64,000 nucleotides of DNA from Actinomyces israelii DSM 43320 (GTDB lineage: Bacteria; Actinomycetota; Actinomycetes; Actinomycetales; Actinomycetaceae). This document shows positions 4,020-42,420 of the stretch, one piece after another; position 1 is the first letter of the stretch; each line of letters begins with the position of its first letter. Below the pieces are notes generated by a model, which saw nothing but the letters and a program-made list of their open reading frames with translations, made no database searches and had not been told where the DNA came from. Where the stretch lies: positions 1 to 64,000 of the forward strand of contig NZ_JONS01000019.1 of the NCBI RefSeq assembly GCF_000711965.1, written 5' to 3'. The position numbers and the translations under genes are program-made.

Positions 4020-5762
4020 TCAGGCGGTCAGGTCCCGACGGCGTCCGGCCGCGTCGGCCACAGCCACCAGCACGACTGCGAGCGCCGCGCACACCGCAGG
4101 CCCGATCCACGGCCCGCCCTCCCCCAGCAGGAGTCGCGCCCCTTCGCTCGCCCCGGCAGTCCCGGCCTCCGGTACCGGCAGCTGGGGGACGTGCGTGAAG
4201 GGCGAGAGGTCGAGCAGCCACTGTGGGGCCCGGGCCGTCGGCCCCAGCACCGTGATGCTCAGGGCCAGCAGGTAGGCGCCCCACCCCAGGGGCCGGGCGA
4301 GTCGGGGCACCACCGCGTGCAGGGCCAGCAGCCACGCGCCGGTCAGGAGCACCGCCGGCAGCTGGGCCGCCAGCCCGGCGACAAGGCCGCCGGCCAGCAC
4401 CCAGGGCCTGGCAGTCGCCGGCGAGTCCTGAGCCATGAGAGCGGGAACCGCGCCGGCCGCCAGCCCCAGGGCGATGGCCGCGAGCATGGCCGCGCTCCCG
4501 GCGGCCGCCACCACGGCCCGGGCTGCGAGCCATCGGCGTCGGGACACCGGGGCGGACAAGACGCTCGCCGTCAGCCCGCGCTCCTCCTCCCCCACGGCGC
4601 CCCCGGCCAGGGCGACGGCGCAGGCCGCGGTGAGGATCCCGCCGTACCTGATGATCATGGCGAGGTAGGTCTGGACGCTCAGCTGGTCGCCGAAGAAGGC
4701 CTGCATGGCCGGGTTGTCGGCGACCATCTGCTGGAAGGAGCTCTCGATGGTGGGGGCGAAGACGCCGTAGGTCAGGCCGAAGGCCAGACCGCCCACCACC
4801 CACCAGCCTCGGGCGGCGGCGCTCGTGCGCAGGGCCAGCCCCAGGGCGCCCGCGGGCCCACGGCTCCGGGTGCGCCAGGCCCCCGCGCCCGTGACCCGCC
4901 CCTCGCCCAGCTCGCGCCCGGCGTGCAGGGCCAGGCCCGCACCGATGAGGACGACGGCGACGCCGGCCAGCAGCCCCAGGGGCGCCCAGCGCAGGTCCAC
5001 GTACACGCGGCTCTGCTGGATGAGGCCGATGGGGGTCAGCCAGGACAGGAGGGAGACGGCGGCGCCGGTACCGCCGCCTGCGCTCCCGGCATCGCCCAGG
5101 CCGCGCAGCAGGAACCAGGCCAGGACCAGCATGAGGCCGCCTCCGCGGGCGGAGCGGGCCGACGGCGCCAGGGCGCCCAGGACCAGTCCGCTTCCGGCCG
5201 CGGCCAGGGCCACGAGGAGCAGTCCGGCCCCCACCACCAGGCAGCCGGCCGCCTCCAGGCCTCCTGCCAGAGCGGCCAGGGCGCACAGCACCGACATCAC
5301 CAGGGCTGCCAGGCCCGCAGAGCACAGCGCCGCCCGGGCACTCTCACCGCGTCCCACGGGGGCGGAGCGCAGCAGCTCGCTCGGGCCTCCCTCCTCGTCC
5401 CCGCGGGTGCGCGCGATCACCATGAGCACTCCCATGAGGGCGGCGACGAGGGCCAGCCAGCCCAGGGCCTGGGCGGCGAAGAGCGCGCCCATGGTGGGGG
5501 AGGCCGCGTCCATGCCGAAGCCGGGGCCGGTGAAGACGGCGGCCGCGGGAGTCGAGTAGGTCAGGGCGGCGGCCCTGCGCTCCTCGACGGTGGAGTACAT
5601 GGTGTTGAACATGGCCACGCAGTAGAGGGCCAGCACTCCTCCGCCCAGGGACCAGGCCAGGATGCTGCGCCGCTCACGACACAGGACCAGGCGGGTCAGT
5701 GGGGAGATCACGGCCCCGCGCGCCCTCGCCCGGGGAAGGGCGGCGGCCCGGCTCGCGCTCAT
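4020..5762 (-). CDS. ABC-2 type exporter permease (two fused membrane halves)
   Basis: A 580-residue integral membrane protein of the actinobacterial polyketide/drug exporter permease type. Two six-helix-like halves are visible: residues about 20-260 (GVLALYCVAMFNTMYS, MGALFAAQALGWLALVAALMG and others) and about 300-570 (GGLAFGLTYGVFAPTIE onward). The loop after each first pair contains the family pattern TRGDEEGGPSELLRSAPVGR and later GEEERGLTASVLSAPVSR, an internal repeat typical of this permease group. Its start overlaps the ATPase stop by four bases (5759-5762), so the two are translated together. With the TetR gene in front this is a self-regulated efflux operon. The substrate cannot be told from sequence. 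Confidence 0.92.
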   Translation of the reverse strand: MSASRAAALPRARARGAVISPLTRLVLCRERRSILAWSLGGGVLALYCVAMFNTMYSTVEERRAAALTYSTPAAAVFTGPGFGMDAASPTMGALFAAQALGWLALVAALMGVLMVIARTRGDEEGGPSELLRSAPVGRGESARAALCSAGLAALVMSVLCALAALAGGLEAAGCLVVGAGLLLVALAAAGSGLVLGALAPSARSARGGGLMLVLAWFLLRGLGDAGSAGGGTGAAVSLLSWLTPIGLIQQSRVYVDLRWAPLGLLAGVAVVLIGAGLALHAGRELGEGRVTGAGAWRTRSRGPAGALGLALRTSAAARGWWVVGGLAFGLTYGVFAPTIESSFQQMVADNPAMQAFFGDQLSVQTYLAMIIRYGGILTAACAVALAGGAVGEEERGLTASVLSAPVSRRRWLAARAVVAAAGSAAMLAAIALGLAAGAVPALMAQDSPATARPWVLAGGLVAGLAAQLPAVLLTGAWLLALHAVVPRLARPLGWGAYLLALSITVLGPTARAPQWLLDLSPFTHVPQLPVPEAGTAGASEGARLLLGEGGPWIGPAVCAALAVVLVAVADAAGRRRDLTA

Positions 5763-6868: not shown

Positions 6869-7584
6869 GAGTCCTCCCGGGGCGAGCCTGGTCGGGGCGT
6901 CCGGGGCTCGGCCGGGGTGTCGGCCGGAGCCTCGGCAGGGGAGGTGGCCGAGGTGGCCCGGACGTAGTCGGCGTAGAGCCCGGGGTCGGTGAACAGGGGC
7001 CGGGAGTAGAGCTCTGCGGTGACGGGGCCGTAGCGGTCGATGAACTCGCCGACGGCGGACTCGATGTCGCCGGGGTCGGAGGCCTCGTAGCGGGCGAAGA
7101 GCAGCAGGGCCCCGAACCCGGAGTAGAGGAGGTAGCGGGCGCGCGCCTCCTCGTTGCGGGAGGGGGTGATGGTCCCGGCCTCGACGGCGGCGGCCGTGTA
7201 GGACACGGCATCCTTGACGAAGAGGTCCAGCAGCTCGGTGGCGAGCTCGCCGCCCTCCGCGATCGAGCGCATGGCGTAGGCGGTGGCCGGGACGTACTTC
7301 TCGACCTGGGACATCTGGGTCATGAGGTCCACGGGGCCGCCGAAGTAGGTCGAGGCGCTCTTGGCCTCCATGGTCAGGCGCAGCACCTCGGCGTCGCAGG
7401 CGCGGCGCAGGCCGTCCTTGGAGCCGAAGTGGTGGGTGATGAGCCCGGCGGTGACCCCGGCGTCGGCCGCGATGGCGCGCAGGCCTACGCCGAAGCCGTC
7501 GCGGGCGAAGCGGCGCAGGGCCGCGTTGCGGATGCGGGCGGCGGCGGTGAGGTCCGGGTCCGGAGACGACGGAATTGAACACAT
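6865..7584 (-). CDS. TetR family regulator of the ABC exporter operon
   Basis: A 239-residue repressor with an N-terminal HTH (residues about 15-62: RIRNAALRRFARDGFGVGLRAIAADAGVTAGLITHHFGSKDGL in outline) and a C-terminal domain of the TetR_C group often linked to ABC exporters. The last 30 residues are a Pro/Ala/Glu-rich tail. I start at ATG 7582-7584 because the HTH begins at the normal distance after it; another ATG lies 36 bases upstream. It is the first gene of a three-gene operon with ATGA overlaps at both junctions, so it probably represses its own operon. TATAGC about 10 bases upstream of the start may be part of a promoter giving a very short leader. Confidence 0.92.
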   Translation of the reverse strand: MCSIPSSPDPDLTAAARIRNAALRRFARDGFGVGLRAIAADAGVTAGLITHHFGSKDGLRRACDAEVLRLTMEAKSASTYFGGPVDLMTQMSQVEKYVPATAYAMRSIAEGGELATELLDLFVKDAVSYTAAAVEAGTITPSRNEEARARYLLYSGFGALLLFARYEASDPGDIESAVGEFIDRYGPVTAELYSRPLFTDPGLYADYVRATSATSPAEAPADTPAEPRTPRPGSPREDS

Positions 7585-7771
7585 GATTAGGATGCTATAC
7601 GAACGTCTAGGATGGCGCAAGAGCCTCCACGCCCCGCCTCGTCGCGCCCGGCGCCGCCCGCGCTCTCAGGCAGGAAGAACCGACAGGCCGCTGCGTTACC
7701 ATATCGAGCCATTACGATTCGGCCTCCTTTCTTGAGAGGTTCGACATCGGGTTGCTAATCTCCTCCAGGAA

Positions 7772-7826
7772 ATGCGGGAAGTCACGATCCCCACATGAGA
7801 TGGATATTTCTCACACCTTCCCGCAT
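7772..7826 (+). promoter_or_regulatory. Structured leader upstream of surface protein gene
   Basis: ATGCGGGAAG (7772-7781) and CTTCCCGCAT (7817-7826) are perfect reverse complements. Inside them TGAGA (7796-7800) pairs with TCTCA (7809-7813). The RNA would fold into a two-level hairpin ending 30 bases before the start codon at 7856. It is far from a T-run, so a role in mRNA stability or translation control is more likely than termination. The function is inferred. The rest of the 270-base gap to the TetR gene shows no gene. Confidence 0.5.
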
Positions 7827-7855
7827 AGACCCTACCCCCTTCTGAGAGGACTCCC

Positions 7856-10486
7856 ATGTCTTTCTTGTCGCGCATGCGCGCCCCCGGCAGGTCGGTCATT
7901 GCCGGCGCGATTGTGCTCATACTTGTCCTGGTCGCGTCCTGGGCCGGGCTGACCCTATCCGCTCAGGCCGCGGTCAACGAGAACATCAAGATCAGTGACT
8001 TCTCGCTGGTGTCCTCCAACGGAAACGGGGCCGAGGACCCCAGCTACAACAACACCAAGGTCGATGACATCCTCAAGCTGAAATTCGCCTGGGATGCCAC
8101 CAACGCGGACCCCAGGAGCGGGCAGTCCTTCCAGATCACGCTGCCCAGCCAGCTCCGCAACCGCGAGAGCCTGACCGAGCCGATGAAGGTGACCTACAAC
8201 GGCGCCGACCACACGATCGGCGAGTGCGTCATGGACGACCAGACCATCACCTGCACCTTCAATGACGCCCTCGACACCCTCCGGGGCCAGGGATTCGACG
8301 GCTTGAACGGCAGGGGATCCGCGCTGGTCGTGGCCGCCAAGGCCACGGAGGAGTCCACGGTGACGATCGACGCCAACGGCAAGAAGACCGCCGTGCCGAT
8401 CCCCGGGGGCCGCATCGCTGAGAACAGCGGCATCAGCTACACGCCTGAGACCCTGCGCAAATGGGCATTCGACGTCACCGCCGCCTCGAAGCAGATGGAC
8501 TGGGAAGTCGATCTCGGCCCCTCCCAGCTCAAGGATGTCCTGGCAGGAGCGGGCACGCCCATCGTTCTGGACGGACACACGCGTTCCACCATCACCCTCA
8601 CTGACGAGATCAGTCCCGGTCACGCCTACTCCCCGGACCTCTCGAAATGGCATCTCGATATCGGTACCAGCTCCACCCGCGATGCCATCTACGGGCAGGT
8701 CACCGACGCCACCGGAACCGACCAGGACACCTCCCAGGGAGACTTCGACCTCAACGTCGTCATTGAGGGCAACCGGGCCACCATCACCATCACCGGCCCC
8801 TTCGCCGCGGACACCAACTACATCATCTACTACGCCTCGACGCCCTCCTCCGAGAACGGGACGGTCCAGCCCGGACTGGAGTACAAGAACAACGTCCACC
8901 TGAAGGGCACCGACCGAGAGGCGTCCTGGTCCGTGTACTACACGAGGTCCTTCACCATCGACGTGAAGCTCGCCCCAGGCTTCGGAGGCTTCAGCGTCGC
9001 CAAGCTGCTCACCGGCTCCGGCGCCCCGAAGGTGCCCGCCGGCACGACCTTCGACGTCGCCGTCGACTACACCCTGCCCGGCGGCGCCACCGTCGACACC
9101 TACCAGGGCTGGACAGCCCCCGGCACCGTCAACGACTCCCGCACCGGAGGCCGCACGGTCCTGAAGGTCTCCAGCGGAGACACGACCACCTACCCGGGGA
9201 CCTTCCCCGCCGGCACCGTGCTCACCCTCAGCGAGGACACCTCCACGGCGTCCGCGACCCCGGAGGGGACCGCCTGGGGCAGCCCCAAGTTCACGGTCGA
9301 TAATCAGGCCGGGTCCAGCCTCACCATCGCCGACCAGAAGTCGACCGCGGTGACGCTGAAGAACACGTCCGAGGAGACCGCCCCTCGCACCGGCCGGTTC
9401 TCGATCGCCAAGACGGTGAGCGGCGACGGCGACTTCACCGGCTCCACCTTCGTCTTCCCCTACGCCTGCGACAACGGCGCTGCGGACGTCCTGCGCGTCC
9501 CCGGCGACGGGACCGTCGTCACGAGCCCCGAGCTGGCGGAGGGAACGACCTGCGAGATCAGCGAGGACACCAACGAGGCCGCGCAGGACGGGTACTCTCT
9601 CGTCTCCTCGCTCTCGAAGAGCTCGGTGACCATCGCCGCCGGAGAGGTGATCGCGGTGACGGCCACCAACACCTACTCGCGCGAGACCGGCACCTTCTCC
9701 GTGGTCAAGCACGCGACGGACAAGGAGGAGCCGCAGCCCGATCCCGTCCCGGCCTCCGGCGACCCTGCGGGCGCTGCGGCCGACGACCAGCAGGCCGCCG
9801 GAGACACGGAAAACACGGCCCTGGCGGAGAAGGAGTTCACCTTCACCTACACCTGCAATGACGCCAACGCCACCAAGGGCACGCTGAAGGCCAAGGGCAA
9901 CGGGTCCACCACGCCCTCCAACGTCCAGCTGCCCCTGGGCACCTCCTGCACCATCACCGAGGACGTGGCCGACGCGCAGGTGCCCGGATACACGCTTAAG
10001 GCGCCCGAGGCGCAGACCGTGACGATCGGCCCCAAGGACCAGCTGGTGGAGGCCTTCTTCACCAATGTCTACACCCCGACGGAGCCGGAGCCCACACCGA
10101 CGCCAGAGCCCACGCCGACGACGGAGCCCACGCCGACGCCGGAGCCCACACCGACGACGGAGCCCACACCGACGCCGTCGCCCGAGCCGAGCGACTCGCC
10201 ATCACCCACGCCCGCCCCGACGCCGGAGCCCAGCGAGGCCCCCTCGCCGGAGCCCAGCGACTCGCCGGCTCCCGAGCCGAGCGAGATGCCGACGCCCGAG
10301 CCCAGCGACCCACCGTCACCCACGCCCGCCCCGACGCCGGATGAGCCGAGTGAGTCGCCAAGCTCGCCGGCGCCGGACGGCGGGAGCTCGCTGGCGCGCA
10401 CCGGAGCGAGCATGTCGATCGCGCTCCTGGCCGCCACGGCCGTCGCGGGCGGTGCCGTCCTGCTGGTCGAGCGCCGTCGGGCCTGA
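7856..10486 (+). CDS. LARTG wall-anchored, adhesin-like surface protein with DUF5979 repeats
   Basis: An 876-residue secreted wall protein. A signal peptide covers about residues 1-39 (hydrophobic VIAGAIVLILVLVASWAG, cut near AQA). Residues about 40-370 form a large beta-rich region resembling Ig-like adhesion domains of Gram-positive MSCRAMMs. From about 375 come repeated domains of the DUF5979 type (GRFSIAKTVSGDGDFTGSTF, then YACDNG and GTTCEISEDT; again GTFSVVKHATD, then FTYTCND and GTSCTITED). A Pro/Thr/Ser/Glu stalk follows (about 742-840). The end is a sortase signal LARTG (846-850), a hydrophobic stretch and ERRRA. GAGAGGA precedes the ATG at good spacing. It probably works in attachment, but the ligand is unknown. 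A strong terminator follows. Confidence 0.9.
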   Translation: MSFLSRMRAPGRSVIAGAIVLILVLVASWAGLTLSAQAAVNENIKISDFSLVSSNGNGAEDPSYNNTKVDDILKLKFAWDATNADPRSGQSFQITLPSQLRNRESLTEPMKVTYNGADHTIGECVMDDQTITCTFNDALDTLRGQGFDGLNGRGSALVVAAKATEESTVTIDANGKKTAVPIPGGRIAENSGISYTPETLRKWAFDVTAASKQMDWEVDLGPSQLKDVLAGAGTPIVLDGHTRSTITLTDEISPGHAYSPDLSKWHLDIGTSSTRDAIYGQVTDATGTDQDTSQGDFDLNVVIEGNRATITITGPFAADTNYIIYYASTPSSENGTVQPGLEYKNNVHLKGTDREASWSVYYTRSFTIDVKLAPGFGGFSVAKLLTGSGAPKVPAGTTFDVAVDYTLPGGATVDTYQGWTAPGTVNDSRTGGRTVLKVSSGDTTTYPGTFPAGTVLTLSEDTSTASATPEGTAWGSPKFTVDNQAGSSLTIADQKSTAVTLKNTSEETAPRTGRFSIAKTVSGDGDFTGSTFVFPYACDNGAADVLRVPGDGTVVTSPELAEGTTCEISEDTNEAAQDGYSLVSSLSKSSVTIAAGEVIAVTATNTYSRETGTFSVVKHATDKEEPQPDPVPASGDPAGAAADDQQAAGDTENTALAEKEFTFTYTCNDANATKGTLKAKGNGSTTPSNVQLPLGTSCTITEDVADAQVPGYTLKAPEAQTVTIGPKDQLVEAFFTNVYTPTEPEPTPTPEPTPTTEPTPTPEPTPTTEPTPTPSPEPSDSPSPTPAPTPEPSEAPSPEPSDSPAPEPSEMPTPEPSDPPSPTPAPTPDEPSESPSSPAPDGGSSLARTGASMSIALLAATAVAGGAVLLVERRRA
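10078..10380 (+). repeat. Pro/Thr/Ser-rich stalk coding repeats
   Basis: Degenerate tandem repeats encode PEPTPTPEPTPTTEPTP and then PEPSDSPSPTPAPTPEPSE units. They form the wall-spanning stalk of the surface protein. Repeats of this kind change length easily by slippage. Confidence 0.85.
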
Positions 10487-11783: not shown

Positions 11784-13001
11784 TCATTTCACCCCGTAGA
11801 TACGATACTCGTGCTCATAGAATCCGCCCTCGCTATTCGTATCGACGAGAATGACTGAGCCCCCGGGAGCCGCCACCACGCACGGCACAGAACGGGACGT
11901 ATAGCTTCCCTCCACCAGCTGACTGAGACTATATTCCAAGTCACGCCGGTCCGATACGTCGTCAGCGGCGGATGTTGAGGAGATCAGAACTGTGAGCGAC
12001 GCGGATCCGTCTGACGCCTGGACCCGAACGGCCATCTCCTCCCCATGGGGCTCGCCGGCCTGCCAGCCATAACCCACCGAGGCCCTGGTCATGCTCGCGT
12101 CCTGCGGGCCCATGGAGACCATACGGGCGGCGGGATCGAAGACGGAGCCGACCCAGGAGTGATCCGCAGGATTCTCCGATCCGCCGGTACCCTGCTCGGT
12201 GAGCTCGGGATACATGACGAGCTGCCGAGAGGCCATGGAGGCCATGGAGGCCATCCGGTTGAGTCCGGCCGTCCTGCCCAGGGCAACTCGTTCGGCGGCG
12301 TCGCCGCCGTGGGCGCCGACGTCGTCGATGCTCACCGCTGACGCGTCCCGGCTGCCGGACTCGCCCGCGCTCCCTTCTGCGTAGACGGCCACTGCTCCGT
12401 CGACAACCGCGAGCACCCGGTAACCTCTCTTATCGGAGATGGGGTCGAGAGCCACGTCCTGCAAGGTGGTAACGGAGTCCAATGCGGTGCCGGGCACGAG
12501 ATCCGGGCGACCCACGGGATTCGATTCGGATTCCTTGTCCTGCCTCCACGCACCGGCAATGAAGGTTGAGTGCCCTGCGGGCCCCGAGTACATGCCGGCG
12601 TTCCGGTAGTCCGACGCGAGGGTTCCCAGGTGGTGCCCGTCGGCCAGGGAGAATGCCTGGTCGCGAATGAGCACCGCGGAATCAGTGAGCTGCAACCGCC
12701 CCGGACTCGCCTCGTCCATTGGTTGCCGAACGGCGACATCACCGGTGATCGTGTCGAGGACGATCACGCTGCCACTCTCCTCCCGTTCGGGGAAGCTGCG
12801 CTTGAGGCGAACCTGAAAGGCCAGGTGCTTGAGGTCGGGGCTGGGAACCAGGTACGTCTCCGGCTCGGGCACAGAATCATCGCTCGCCGATACAAAGTTC
12901 GCACTGCGCACCTGGTAGCCCCACAGCGTGGATCCGTCCTGGGAATCGAGTCCCCTGACAGTGTCCTTATCCAGGACAACAGGACCACGCGCACCTGCCA
13001 C
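11784..13001 (-). pseudogene. Beta-propeller (PQQ-like) protein fragment, upstream copy
   Basis: A 405-residue frame from GTG 12999-13001. Coding similarity continues upstream in frame (WDRDIESGRVLDVVAG) to a TGA at 13068-13070, so the real 5' end with its membrane anchor is missing. Blade motifs are LDSQDGSTLWGYQV, LDTITGDVAVRQP and SLADGHHLGTLASD, typical of PQQ-like propellers that keep a Trp near the strand end. A nine-base unit (GGCCATGGA) is repeated three times around 12231-12254, giving MASMASMAS. It lies just downstream of the broken response regulator on the same strand. I infer that a deletion removed the 5' part of this gene together with the 3' part of the regulator. Confidence 0.6.
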
Positions 13002-13246
13002 GACATCCAGGACCCGGCCTGATTCGATATCGCGATCCCAGACGCAGGGCGCGCAGAATAGTGGTGCTCAGGCATTGGTGAGGCAATGGTGCGAGGCGCG
13101 GCGTCGCCCGCCTCTCCCGGTTCGCCATCCCGGGCTGCGCCGCCCCGGGCCCCGCAGTCCCCGAGCGGTCCGCGCCCGCGTGCTGGACGTCCTCGGCCAG
13201 GCACCCCCTCCCTTCCCGCCGCCTCCCCCTCTTTCCCCTCCGCCCG

Positions 13247-38885: not shown

Positions 38886-38939
38886 GGCATCAGGACCAGT
38901 CGCACGCACCGGTACAGCTCCGGAGCGTGCGAGCCGGCC

Positions 38940-39223
38940 ACCGGGATCCAGATCCCGTGGACTGGGCGTCGGCCCTGGACACCGACGGCGACTTCGTCGC
39001 CGAGCACCTGGCCCCCTTGGAGGTCAGGATCCTGTCCCTGTACGCCATGGGCGCGAAATCCGTGACCGTGGCCCGAGAGCTCGGCTGCACCGTGCCCACC
39101 GTCAACACCTACGTCGCCAGGATCCGCGAGAAGTACCGGAAGGTCGGACGCCCGGCAGACACGCGGGTGGACCTGTTCCGGCGCGCCGCCGAGGACGGCC
39201 TGGTCGGCTACCGCGTCGCGTAG
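38940..39223 (+). pseudogene. LuxR-type response regulator, receiver domain lost
   Basis: The frame reads VDWASALDTDGDFVAEHLAP, then LYAMGAKSVTVARELG and TVNTYVARIREKYRKVGRPA. It is over 75% identical to the C-terminal half of the regulator at 41746. The whole receiver half is gone, and the transposase remnant lies directly upstream. A GTG at 38927 could start a 98-residue HTH-only protein, but no ribosome site is seen. If made, it might compete with the full-length paralogue for DNA. Confidence 0.75.
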
Positions 39224-39228
39224 TACTG

Positions 39229-41534
39229 ATGGGCCGTGTCCTGTCGCCCGCCGCTGGGCCGCACACGCTGCAGCTGCGCAGATGGATCGTCGTGTTCGTC
39301 GGCGCCACCGCGGCCGGGACCAGCGCCGGAGCGGCCCCCGCCATCGCGTCGGCCATCCAACGGGTTCCTGCGCTGACGCTGTGGCCGCTCATGCTGCCGG
39401 TGCTCATCCTCCCGCTGCTCGCCGGCGCGGTGGCCGCCGTCGCCCTGTCGCAGGCTCAGCGCAGGAAGCGGGTCGGGGAACCGGCCACGGCCGTTGAAAC
39501 GCGGTCATCGCCGATCGACCGGACCTGGCAGGCGATGGTGATGGCCGCACTGATCGGCTACGGCCTCGAAGTCGCGCTGACCGGGGCGATACCGCTGATC
39601 CCGTCGCTGTCCGGCACCGACACCGTCACTCGGGACACCCCGCTCATCAGCTACTTCCCGATCGTCGGAATCGCGGGATCGACCATCCTGACGCCACGGG
39701 CCAACGGCCTCTACATCGTGACCCTGGTGCCTGCCCTGATCATAATGCTGGTGACCTCCCGCGGCGCCCTGACCGACGTGTCGGTGGAGCAGCCGCTGCT
39801 CCTCCTCATGAGCGCCCTGCTGGTGACCGGGATGCTGCACTGGATGCTGGACCAGGGACGCGCGCTGGACCGGGCATCGGCTGAGCGCCGCCGGCAGTTC
39901 GTCAGCCTGGCCGCCGACCACGCCCGCTCCGTCGCCCAGCGACGCTCCAACGGCTTCGTCCACGACCACATCCTGTCCGTCCTGGTCTCGCTCTCCGCGG
40001 GCCTGGAGGACTCGGCCCAGCTGCGGCAGGCCACCCGTAGCGCGCTGGAATCGTTGGAGCCGCAGGCTCCGAGCGCCCCCCGATCAGCGCCTCGGCCCTC
40101 TTCGAGGCCCTGACGACGCAGATCCGGTCGCTGAGCCCCGAAGCGCGGCTGGCGATCTCCACCGCCGTCGACCGCCCCGTGCCCGCCGCGGTGTCCCAGG
40201 CCCTCGCCGACGCCGTCACGGAGGCGCTGCGCAACTCACTGCGGCATGCTGGCGGCGAGGAGGGCCCGGGGAGTGTCGAGCGTCGCATCGAGATGCGCAG
40301 CGACGCGGAGGGGGTGGCCGTCGTCGTCTCCGACGACGGCCGCGGCTTCGACCCGGCCGCCCCGGCTCCCGGCAGGCACGGTCTCACCGGCTCCATCGGG
40401 ACTCGTCTGCACGACGCCGGTGCCACGGCGCACGTCCGCTCCGCCCCGGGGCACGGGACCGCCGTCTCCATGACCTGGGCCCCATCGTCGGGCGCCGACC
40501 AGCGAGCAGCCGACATCACAAGCGCCGAGGTCTGGCCGAGCTCCGTCGCCTCGGCCGCGGAGACCGCCTGGGCGCGGCTCATCGGCGTCTACGCGGTGGT
40601 CATCCACATCGCGATCGCCGTCGCGGAGATCCGCTCCGGCGCCTACTCGACCGCCGTCCCCGTCGTCGTCAGCCTGGCCGCTCTCATGCTGGCGGCCTTC
40701 CTGCTGCTGCGCTCCTGGCCGCGGGCCTCCATGCCGCGCTGGGCCGTCGCCGTCGTCCTGCTCATCGTGCCCACCACCCATCTGGCCGTCATGCTGCCGA
40801 TCCGCACCAGCGGGTGGCCCGGCTTCGCCTCGTGGGTCACCGGCGCGGCCAATGCGGTGTGCTGCTGCCTACTGGTGAGGCAGCGCCCCAGGGCGGCCTG
40901 GGCGGGCGAGCTCCTCCTGATCGCGACCGCCGTCGTCTGGGTGGCCCTCAGCCGCCGCTCCCCGCTGATACTCCCGAGCTACCTGCTCCCCCAGACCATT
41001 GCGCTCATCCTGTGGCATCTGGCCGCCAACCGCCGCACCGCGGCCAGCGCCGCCATCGCCGCCGCGCAGGCGCGCACCGCGGAGGTCCTGGCCCTGCGCC
41101 AGGCCAACATGACCGCCGACCGGGTCATGAGGCAGGCGATGGAGTCGGTTCGCCGCCGCGCCAGTCCCCTGCTGGAGCGGGTCGCCGCCGGCGAGGCGCT
41201 CACCCCGCAGGTGCGGACCCATGCCCGTCTGGTGGAGGCGGAGCTGCGCGACGAGATCCGCGCCCCGTTCTTCACCGGCACCCCCGTCGTCCGGGCGGCC
41301 CGGGAGGCGCGCGCTCGCGGCACCGACGTCATCCTCATGGATGACCGGGGCGACAGCCGGCTGCCCCCGGACATCCGCCGGGCGATCACCGACAGCATCG
41401 TCCAGATTCTCGCCGACGGCGACCAGGCGCGCGTCGTCGTCCGCGTCCTGCCCGCCGGGCGGCCGCAGCTCGTCTCCGTCCTCACCGACACCGGCGCCAC
41501 CCTTCTGGGGGCGGACGGGCGCCCGGTTCGCTGA
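39229..41534 (+). pseudogene. Tandem sensor kinase (two membrane-kinase modules), frame shifted at a C6 run
   Basis: Part one (from ATG 39229) has about six membrane helices and a HisKA_3-like helix with H245 in FVHDHILSVLVSLS. Its frame ends at 40111. The ATPase domain continues in another frame (PISASALFEALTTQIRSL, N-box DAVTEALRNSLRHAGG, G1 VVVSDDGRGFDP). One added C in CCCCCC (40076-40081) joins both into about 768 residues. After the ATPase domain comes a second six-helix block (about 40560-41030), a helical part without a phospho-His (ALRQANMTADRVMRQAMESV) and a degenerate ATPase-like end (IRRAITDSIVQILADGDQARVVV). So the module membrane-dimer-ATPase occurs twice, the second being degenerate. 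Its partner is the regulator at 41746. Confidence 0.8.
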
Positions 41535-41745: not shown

Positions 41746-42420
41746 ATGAGCAGCCAGCCATACGTCCTGATTATCGACGAGTGCAGTATTATCGCCCAGG
41801 GCTGCCAACTGCGGTTCGCCCAGGCCGGCCTGCCCTGGACGGTGCGGTGGGTCCCGAGCCTGCACACCGCAGACGGGCGGCTGGTACCGGAACTGGGCGC
41901 CGCAGATGGGCATCCGGCACCAGACCTGGCCATCCTCGAGCTGCGGCTGGCAGACGGCTCCACGCCCACGGACAACATCCGCGAGCTGAACGAGCTCTCC
42001 ATCCCGGTGGTCGTCCACACCTCGGGCGACGAGCCGGTGCTGGTCCGCCAGGCCCTCGCCACCAGCATTCTGGCCATTGTGAAGAAGTCGGCTCCCGACG
42101 GCGACCTGATCAGGGCCTCGCAGGCGGCCCTGGACGGGATCCCCAGCACCAACCTGAGCTGGGCGTCCGCCCTGGACACGGACAACGACTTCGCCACCGA
42201 GTGCCTGACCCCCACGGAGGTCGATGTGCTGTCCCGGTACGCCCTGGGGGCGAAGTCCGTGACGGTGGCCCGAGAGCTCGGCTACACCAATGCCACCGTG
42301 AACACCTACGTCGCCAGGATCCGCGAGAAGTACCGGGAGGCCGGCCGCCCGGCAGACACGCGGGTGGACCTGTTCCGGCGCGCCGTCGAGGACGGCGTGG
42401 TCGGCTACCGAGCCGCATAG
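41746..42420 (+). CDS. LuxR-type response regulator with Glu at the phosphorylation site
   Basis: A 224-residue regulator. The receiver half starts YVLIIDECSIIAQG (D11-E12 acidic pair). At the place of the phosphorylated Asp it has E65 (DLAILELRLADG, where relatives have LLDLRLPDG). A Thr/Ser switch (VVVHTSGDEP) and Lys (AIVKKSAP) are kept. The C-terminal LuxR HTH is LTPTEVDVLSRYALGAKSVT, then TVNTYVARIREKYREAG. Glu at this site often imitates the phosphorylated state, so it may be active without its kinase (inference). ATG 41746 is preferred over 41743 because AGGGAAGG (41733-41740) is then at better spacing. A terminator follows. Confidence 0.88.
   Translation: MSSQPYVLIIDECSIIAQGCQLRFAQAGLPWTVRWVPSLHTADGRLVPELGAADGHPAPDLAILELRLADGSTPTDNIRELNELSIPVVVHTSGDEPVLVRQALATSILAIVKKSAPDGDLIRASQAALDGIPSTNLSWASALDTDNDFATECLTPTEVDVLSRYALGAKSVTVARELGYTNATVNTYVARIREKYREAGRPADTRVDLFRRAVEDGVVGYRAA

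Follow-up and report, generated by a model that had tools for sequence, protein, structure and literature searches.

DivL is a catalytically dead histidine kinase that regulates an active one. In group A Streptococcus, FasB and FasC are reported to heterodimerise, and FasC is proposed to be a pseudokinase whose histidine, H246, is required (PMC12675982). ChrS of Corynebacterium glutamicum, dead through a frameshift in its ATPase domain, is described as altering the signalling of its paralogue HrrS (PMC9491836); EL346 is presented as a working monomeric kinase with one LOV and one kinase part, for which a symmetric dimer is not required (PMC10359499); and the name pseudo-histidine kinase is given to DivL in PMC9430884. 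Membrane adenylyl cyclases are characterised as duplicated, fused pseudoheterodimers with two six-helix modules per chain (PMC9552081), and the six-helix receptor of the quorum-sensing kinase CqsS is stated to be able to replace the anchor of the cyclase Rv1625c (PMC4821796). Here we analyse a sensor kinase gene in a 64,000-nucleotide stretch of Actinomyces israelii DSM 43320 (contig NZ_JONS01000019.1; hereafter the window, in whose forward-strand numbering the coordinates of this copy are given), together with its relatives in other genomes. The gene carries two membrane kinase-like modules in succession and, to judge from the sequence, appears to encode a sensor of uncatalogued type that consists of two unequal partners. 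We lean towards a fused double kinase in which a pseudokinase second half pairs with the active first half in an unequal dimer.

The window copy is interrupted between frames A and B (Table 1). Frame B is open from 40041, ends in a stop codon at 41532-41534 and holds the ATPase domain of the first module together with the entire second module. The initial annotation had postulated a one-base shift here, and a profile of first halves agrees with it: positions 14-274 of the profile match in frame A and positions 270-418 in frame B, the switch falling at or beside the six-C run. The two frames were read separately; intact relatives stood in for the full-length protein. A programmed frameshift at the six-C run was rejected, as one uninterrupted frame spans the gene in 16 full-length relatives.

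The first half is a membrane kinase module with its catalytic motifs in place. In the window protein its ATPase domain exceeds the cut-offs of the Pfam families HATPase_c_2 and HATPase_c, and outside this domain the frame-A and frame-B proteins give no significant Pfam or NCBIfam match. Neither protein matches HisKA or HisKA_3 in Pfam at expectation (E) values up to 1; the phospho-acceptor domain was assigned through its motif, a structure model and profile comparison. Neither has a Pfam match to a receiver domain (Response_reg), and a hybrid kinase was rejected for this reason. Across the aligned first halves (57 of 59 rows, those of the window and of L034_7013 being left out as incomplete), the N-, D- and G-box Asn, Asp and Gly are each kept in all 57 and the phospho-acceptor His in 55. 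H245 and the full ATPase domain, both read from the letters in the initial annotation, are confirmed by these results.

The second half has lost the corresponding residues. In an alignment of 60 second halves, for which wide profile coverage was required and which includes broken copies (among them the window, L040 and L042), His occupies the H-box column in a single row and any nearby column in at most 4 of 60 rows, and no column of the aligned N-box helix has Asn in more than 7 of the 60. Both residues are also missing at the aligned places of the window's own second half, as had been noted beforehand. Other residues are nearly invariant: the R and D of an ELRD motif, a later R, a later G and one D are each present in 60 of 60 second halves, and the first E of the motif and another R in 59 of 60. 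Nine positions (E, R, D, R, R, R, G, D and R), conserved in at least 55 of the 60 rows, cluster in the cytosolic part. The conserved R, D and G positions suggest selection on the second half. The ELR...P segment to which the motif belongs resembles the end of the second hairpin helix in seven control kinases, and no conserved motif of this kind is found in the 57 first-half rows. The motif losses of the two halves are complementary, which may be the mark of parts that need each other.

Database searches with the second half were largely empty. None of the 21 second halves scanned has a significant Pfam or NCBIfam match; the HPt domain is absent from all 21 in Pfam, and an HPt partner of the RcsD kind was rejected on that ground. 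Nor does a class III cyclase domain match the window protein or any of the 21 second halves in Pfam. Among solved structures searched by sequence, the best second-half match is an isomerase (E = 0.014, non-significant), and adenylyl cyclase type 5 appears at E = 0.58. An AlphaFold2 model of the window's second half, built from the window letters and 20 relatives (mean predicted local distance difference test score (pLDDT) 89.3), consists of five helices, a long helix (residues 142-214), its partner (221-239) and an alpha/beta remnant (247-321); the start of the long helix was counted as the sixth membrane helix and the rest as stalk and hairpin. With the structure comparison tool VIA, the remnant superposes on the ATPase domain of DesK over 82 residues (2.4 Å, Z 6.8) and the model superposes on AgrC over 102 residues (2.9 Å, Z 7.5), modest matches by the tool's guide; Foldseek finds nothing for the model at E ≤ 0.001, its best hit being AgrC at 0.014. 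A second half composed of a helical hairpin and a reduced ATPase-like part, as originally proposed, is thus what the model contains. We call the nucleotide pocket merely reduced because sequence and structure alignments disagree on the remaining strands. The annotated count of six membrane helices in each half is less firm: it agrees with the model of a relative for the first half and with the window-half model for the second, whereas in the hydropathy of the window letters about four distinct peaks can be told apart for the first half and five for the second. In locus L044 (6710-10171), a frame of 1154 codons carries a long Gly/Pro/Ala-rich insertion within the ATPase-like remnant of the second half.

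The two halves are nevertheless related to each other. When the 60 second halves were compared with the 57 first halves by hhalign, the match had a probability of 97.1% and an E value of 7.2e-11; its 200 columns reach from the last membrane helices, by way of stalk and hairpin, as far as the first helix of the ATPase part. A reversed alignment gave E = 0.006 and five column shuffles gave E = 0.46-0.90; a smaller comparison of 14 with 16 sequences gave 89.3% and E = 2.1e-6. Against 11 other kinases of the genus, the second half reached only E = 0.35, whereas the first half reached 1.5e-19. The match and its controls therefore identify the second half as a recognisable relative of its own first half and, at this sensitivity, not of the control kinases. 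Since the controls are far weaker than the match between the halves, a chance fusion of two unrelated domains was rejected.

The layout recurs in other genomes. In the same genome, an intact paralogue occupies an open frame of 864 codons and is 45% identical over frame B. A scan of the genus gave some match in 37 of 49 genomes, many of them to ordinary ATPase domains alone; by reading of the rows, 14 of the 49 (its own included) have long or second-half matches, and the idea that the gene is specific to this genome was rejected on this basis. Sixteen full-length single-frame proteins, from this genome and from relatives, align across both halves, in the one-frame layout that the initial annotation had suggested looking for in other Actinomyces. 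All 16 share the His, the N-box Asn and the D- and G-box residues in the first half; in the second half, which has no conserved His, they share E..LRD, AR..G..V, two Asp (DD) and an R-x-x-P near its end. Named carriers are Actinomyces dentalis, A. johnsonii, A. timonensis, A. provencensis, Pauljensenia hongkongensis and a Buchananella metagenome-assembled genome (MAG), as well as A. oris, in which the reading frame is broken. Profiles of the second half gave matches in 35 of the 200 family genomes sampled and in 107 of 396 from the order, about a quarter (for two of the 107, E was above 1e-4). For the class the figure is 32 of 394, and for the phylum 15 of 396; three of these 15 lie outside the class, are marginal (E = 3e-5 to 9e-4) and are not counted as carriers. 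The genus, family, order, class and phylum samples overlap, and their counts are not to be summed.

Gene linkage was read from 58 stretches, namely the window and 57 others that we selected from profile-search matches. They hold 61 second halves, a count that excludes the shorter or weaker fragments at L048, L049, L121 and L148. A first half shares the frame of 30 of them and precedes another 30 in a frame of its own, so that it is in the same frame or upstream in 60 of 61; the remaining one (L042) stands alone. Two of the separate-frame cases, L040 and L131, look like frame-broken fusions, and in a third, L130, the first half is 1.9 kb away. The 23 named loci comprise 10 in one frame, 12 in separate frames (A. 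oris L152, which is a broken fusion, seven Nocardia, two Rhodoluna and two other MAGs) and one without a first half. Outside the Actinomycetaceae nearly all copies examined are two adjacent genes; the exceptions to this division are L119, fused outside the family, and L130, L132 and L139-L141, split within it. In 20 of 28 separate-frame pairs (two of the 28 being probably broken fusions), the genes share a 4-base stop/start overlap, counted with the start codon nearest the first gene's stop, which was chosen by script and is not an annotated start. Such an overlap is the usual sign of coupled translation, and the split kinase and partner genes are probably translated together.

A tree of 70 second halves implies four changes of state between split and fused forms. 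It was made by a quick method, with support from the Shimodaira-Hasegawa-like approximate likelihood-ratio test only and a midpoint root, and it omits named loci of genomes already present, two near-identical and two partial Nocardia rows. Because the root is merely a midpoint, we take the split form as the earlier one from its wide spread and from the 4-base overlaps. As relatives outside the Actinomycetaceae carry two genes, the fusion joined two already diverged neighbours and was not an intragenic duplication. The layout is a two-step fused duplication: an old duplication left a kinase and a dead partner as neighbours, which were later fused. The initial annotation had proposed a fused duplication and had regarded two separate genes in relatives as contradicting it. 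Its claim that the halves share an origin holds, but such separate genes do exist, and the last step was the fusion of two unlike neighbouring genes.

Several loci depart from the simple pattern. Tandem clusters at L037, L034/L149, L047 and L044 have one regulator followed by two double kinases, giving up to four kinase-like modules; the first kinase of the L034 tandem is interrupted by N. At L110 (11245-12432) and L114 (11527-12681), a module with a complete ATPase and Arg for His, the reverse loss, lies beside a second-half gene and a normal pair. Copies L048 and L049 (genomes G009 and G043) are decayed, with internal deletions that join the start of the first-half ATPase domain to parts of the second half.

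On the reading that we favour, the first half would act as a membrane histidine kinase with all catalytic motifs, usually encoded beside a LuxR-type regulator, and the second half would go back to a duplicate in which the phospho-acceptor His and the nucleotide-binding residues were lost while membrane module, stalk and hairpin were retained. Joined at the membrane bundle, the stalk and the hairpin, the two halves would make up an unequal dimer that has only one active His and one ATPase. As a structural and sensory partner, the second half would contribute half of the sensor and set the conformation of the active half, and the active half would phosphorylate the response regulator; fusion would fix a 1:1 ratio of kinase and partner. 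We infer this role of the second half; its effect may be of either sign, and the sensor or built-in inhibitor considered in the initial annotation may be a form of it.

The pairing of the two halves within one chain is seen in a model only. A full-length model of an intact A. dentalis relative (pLDDT 79.1, predicted template modelling score (pTM) 0.62) was compared with known structures by VIA. The top eight rows are membrane adenylyl cyclases (AC9 and AC8), the best of which aligns over 363 residues in the model range 1-614 (Z 17.5, 4.7 Å); kinases appear at Z 15.4 and below among the matches listed, with DesK a close match. Since the range 1-614 must span both membrane modules and stalks, the model seems to adopt an internal pseudo-dimer packing. 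A further, bolder idea, which we put forward tentatively and consider rather doubtful, is that the Actinomycetaceae independently took the path of the adenylyl cyclases, in that a six-helix receptor-kinase was duplicated, one copy lost catalysis but retained a set of fixed contact residues, and the two were then fused into a single-chain, 12-helix pseudo-heterodimer with one active site. If this were true, the kinase would be obligately half-active and could use two unlike membrane receptors for sensing, and the split pairs would be living intermediates of the fusion.

A number of observations weigh against the unequal dimer. The full-length model rests on 10 sequences, reaches the pTM of 0.62 given above and has no unrelated 12-helix control beside it; VIA itself warns that helical bundles reach Z of about 13-14 by chance, and the best 50 Foldseek rows listed for the same model are kinases and related proteins, with no adenylyl cyclase. 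When the second half is compared by itself, VIA ranks first a designed helical repeat, placed on the membrane part (Z 9.2). The distances of the N- and C-terminal partners of split pairs are correlated (r = 0.93), as is expected from shared descent alone. In two first halves, at L110 and L114, Arg replaces the phospho-acceptor His. For 7 of the 61 second halves, the stretch showed no regulator of the family; 13 of the 23 named loci have one, and none was found for the other 10, including all seven Nocardia. Besides the window, copies are broken in A. oris, G009 and G043, and the system is dispensable in Actinomyces to the extent that several of its copies there are broken. Finally, ordinary kinases homodimerise, and two fused chains could pair first half to first half.

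This last point leads to an alternative in which fused chains homodimerise, first half with first and second with second; the second half would in that case serve as an attached accessory sensor and modulate the kinase, for instance by inhibiting it. Histidine kinases are described as typically homodimers (PMC10359499, PMC12675982), and the second half owns a membrane module, stalk and hairpin with which it could pair with itself; the single-chain model, however, matches adenylyl cyclases along the membrane modules and stalks of both halves, and the losses of the two halves are complementary, neither point being decisive. We consider this arrangement unlikely. It is far more improbable, in our estimation, that the second half keeps an activity of its own, be it nucleotide or ligand binding or the stimulation of regulator dephosphorylation through the invariant Arg, Asp and Gly. 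The clustering of the nine conserved positions in the cytosolic part would fit such an activity, but neither a His nor an N-box Asn is conserved in the second half, and only 82 of the approximately 120 residues of the DesK ATPase fold could be aligned. We retain the unequal dimer as our working model.

In most loci the kinase is accompanied by a LuxR-type response regulator. Of the 61 second halves, 53 have a full-length regulator of the family in their stretch, and one more has a split one. The seven Nocardia loci (L158-L162, L169 and L171) are split pairs whose regulator may lie elsewhere than in the fetched stretch or be of another type. Apart from the kinase and regulator genes, even the commonest neighbouring families recur in at most 8 of 67 stretches and point to no target pathway. 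Near the window kinase there are a regulator remnant upstream and a full regulator gene downstream. The remnant, directly 5' of the kinase, has no receiver part, and the downstream gene has Glu at the phospho-acceptor position, which is Asp in the other 62 of 63 aligned rows (some genomes appear twice); this regulator may be locked in one state or decaying. Elsewhere in the genome, the C6 locus (L033) holds an intact paralogous double kinase at 7136-9727 and, about 2.3 kb upstream of it, a regulator split between two frames at 12025-13193. At the C47 locus (L176, about 4900-5560) the regulator is likewise divided over two frames, and its contig showed no kinase of the family. A short kinase match next to the C47 regulator is the regulator gene read in another frame and was not used.

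From these signs the window copy is probably a decaying pseudogene. The frame break might instead be a sequencing or assembly error in a gene that is intact in the organism: it sits at a six-C run in a 102-contig draft assembly, all catalytic motifs are still present on both sides of it, and a high error rate would also explain why two more genes of the family break by frame in this genome. We regard such an error as fairly unlikely, because the surroundings decay too (the truncated upstream regulator, the Asp-to-Glu change downstream and the split C47 regulator, beside which no kinase of the family was found) and because the C47 break is not within a long single-base run.

Table 1. Features of the double kinase locus in the A. 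israelii window (positions in the 64,000-nucleotide stretch)
Feature	Positions	Strand	Basis or remark
LuxR-type response regulator, C-terminal DNA-binding remnant	38927..39223	+	Pfam GerE; 77% identity to residues 137-224 of the downstream regulator
Frame A, membrane part and phospho-His helix of first (kinase) module	39229..40113	+	
His245, phospho-acceptor position	39961..39963	+	Motif, conserved in first halves
Six-C run at frame break	40076..40081	+	
First-module ATPase domain, frame B	40143..40478	+	Pfam HATPase_c_2, E 1.2e-9, residues 22-133 of frame-B protein
First-module N-box	40230..40250	+	Asn in 57/57 first halves
First-module D-box, DDGRGFD	40332..40352	+	Asp in 57/57 first halves
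First-module G-box	40449..40466	+	Gly in 57/57 first halves
Second-module membrane helices, counted as six	40566..41033	+	AlphaFold2 model residues 8-163; end of sixth a judgement, inside the long helix
Second-module hairpin, equivalent of dimerisation/phospho-His helices, without His	41112..41261	+	Model and hhalign; start placed from hhalign alignment
EAELRD motif, second module	41235..41252	+	First E in 59/60, R and D in 60/60 second halves
ATPase-like remnant, without N-box Asn	41268..41516	+	VIA: 82 residues on the ~120-residue DesK domain
Downstream full response regulator, Glu for phospho-acceptor Asp	41746..42420	+	Aligned rows of regulator family

The second half, a kinase partner that is conserved yet has no significant match in Pfam or NCBIfam, occurs in about a quarter of the sampled genomes of its order. 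The initial annotation knew of no described family with this layout, and in keeping with this we found no description of one, by title or start of abstract, among the open-licence papers listed by full-text searches for such kinases. Because the unequal pair exists in split and in fused form, the need for two active subunits can be tested in one natural family. Should the resemblance to cyclases be borne out, it would suggest that two unrelated enzymes with six-helix receptors converged on a pseudo-heterodimer design.

Among known systems, DesK is a close structural match for both ATPase parts; we know of no second, dead kinase module in it. RcsD contains a region resembling a kinase, and the DNA-binding part of RcsB is of the LuxR type. 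RcsC, RcsD and RcsB resemble the present system in combining a kinase, a membrane partner and a regulator, but RcsD is described as carrying an HPt domain (PMC5651002), which the 21 second halves lack. EL346, as portrayed in PMC10359499, has no second, dead kinase module. ChrS and HrrS are alike in that a catalytically dead kinase changes the signalling of a paralogous one; ChrS differs in being, by its description, a laboratory-evolved mutant of a normal kinase without fusion, and in that report the native forms heterodimerised while the truncated form gave no significant signal (PMC9491836). Membrane adenylyl cyclases share the two six-helix modules in one chain and head the VIA rows of the full-length model, but their output is that of a cyclase, whereas here the output is that of a kinase, with no cyclase domain and a sequence similarity that stops at the non-significant value given above. 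The closest worked-out analogue that we found is FasBCA, which likewise joins a response regulator to two kinase-like membrane proteins from neighbouring genes. As reported in PMC12675982, however, FasC carries its required His, the Fas proteins are separate and the Fas regulator is ComE-like, whereas in the present system the dead half has no His, the halves are fused in many Actinomycetaceae and the regulator is of the LuxR type.

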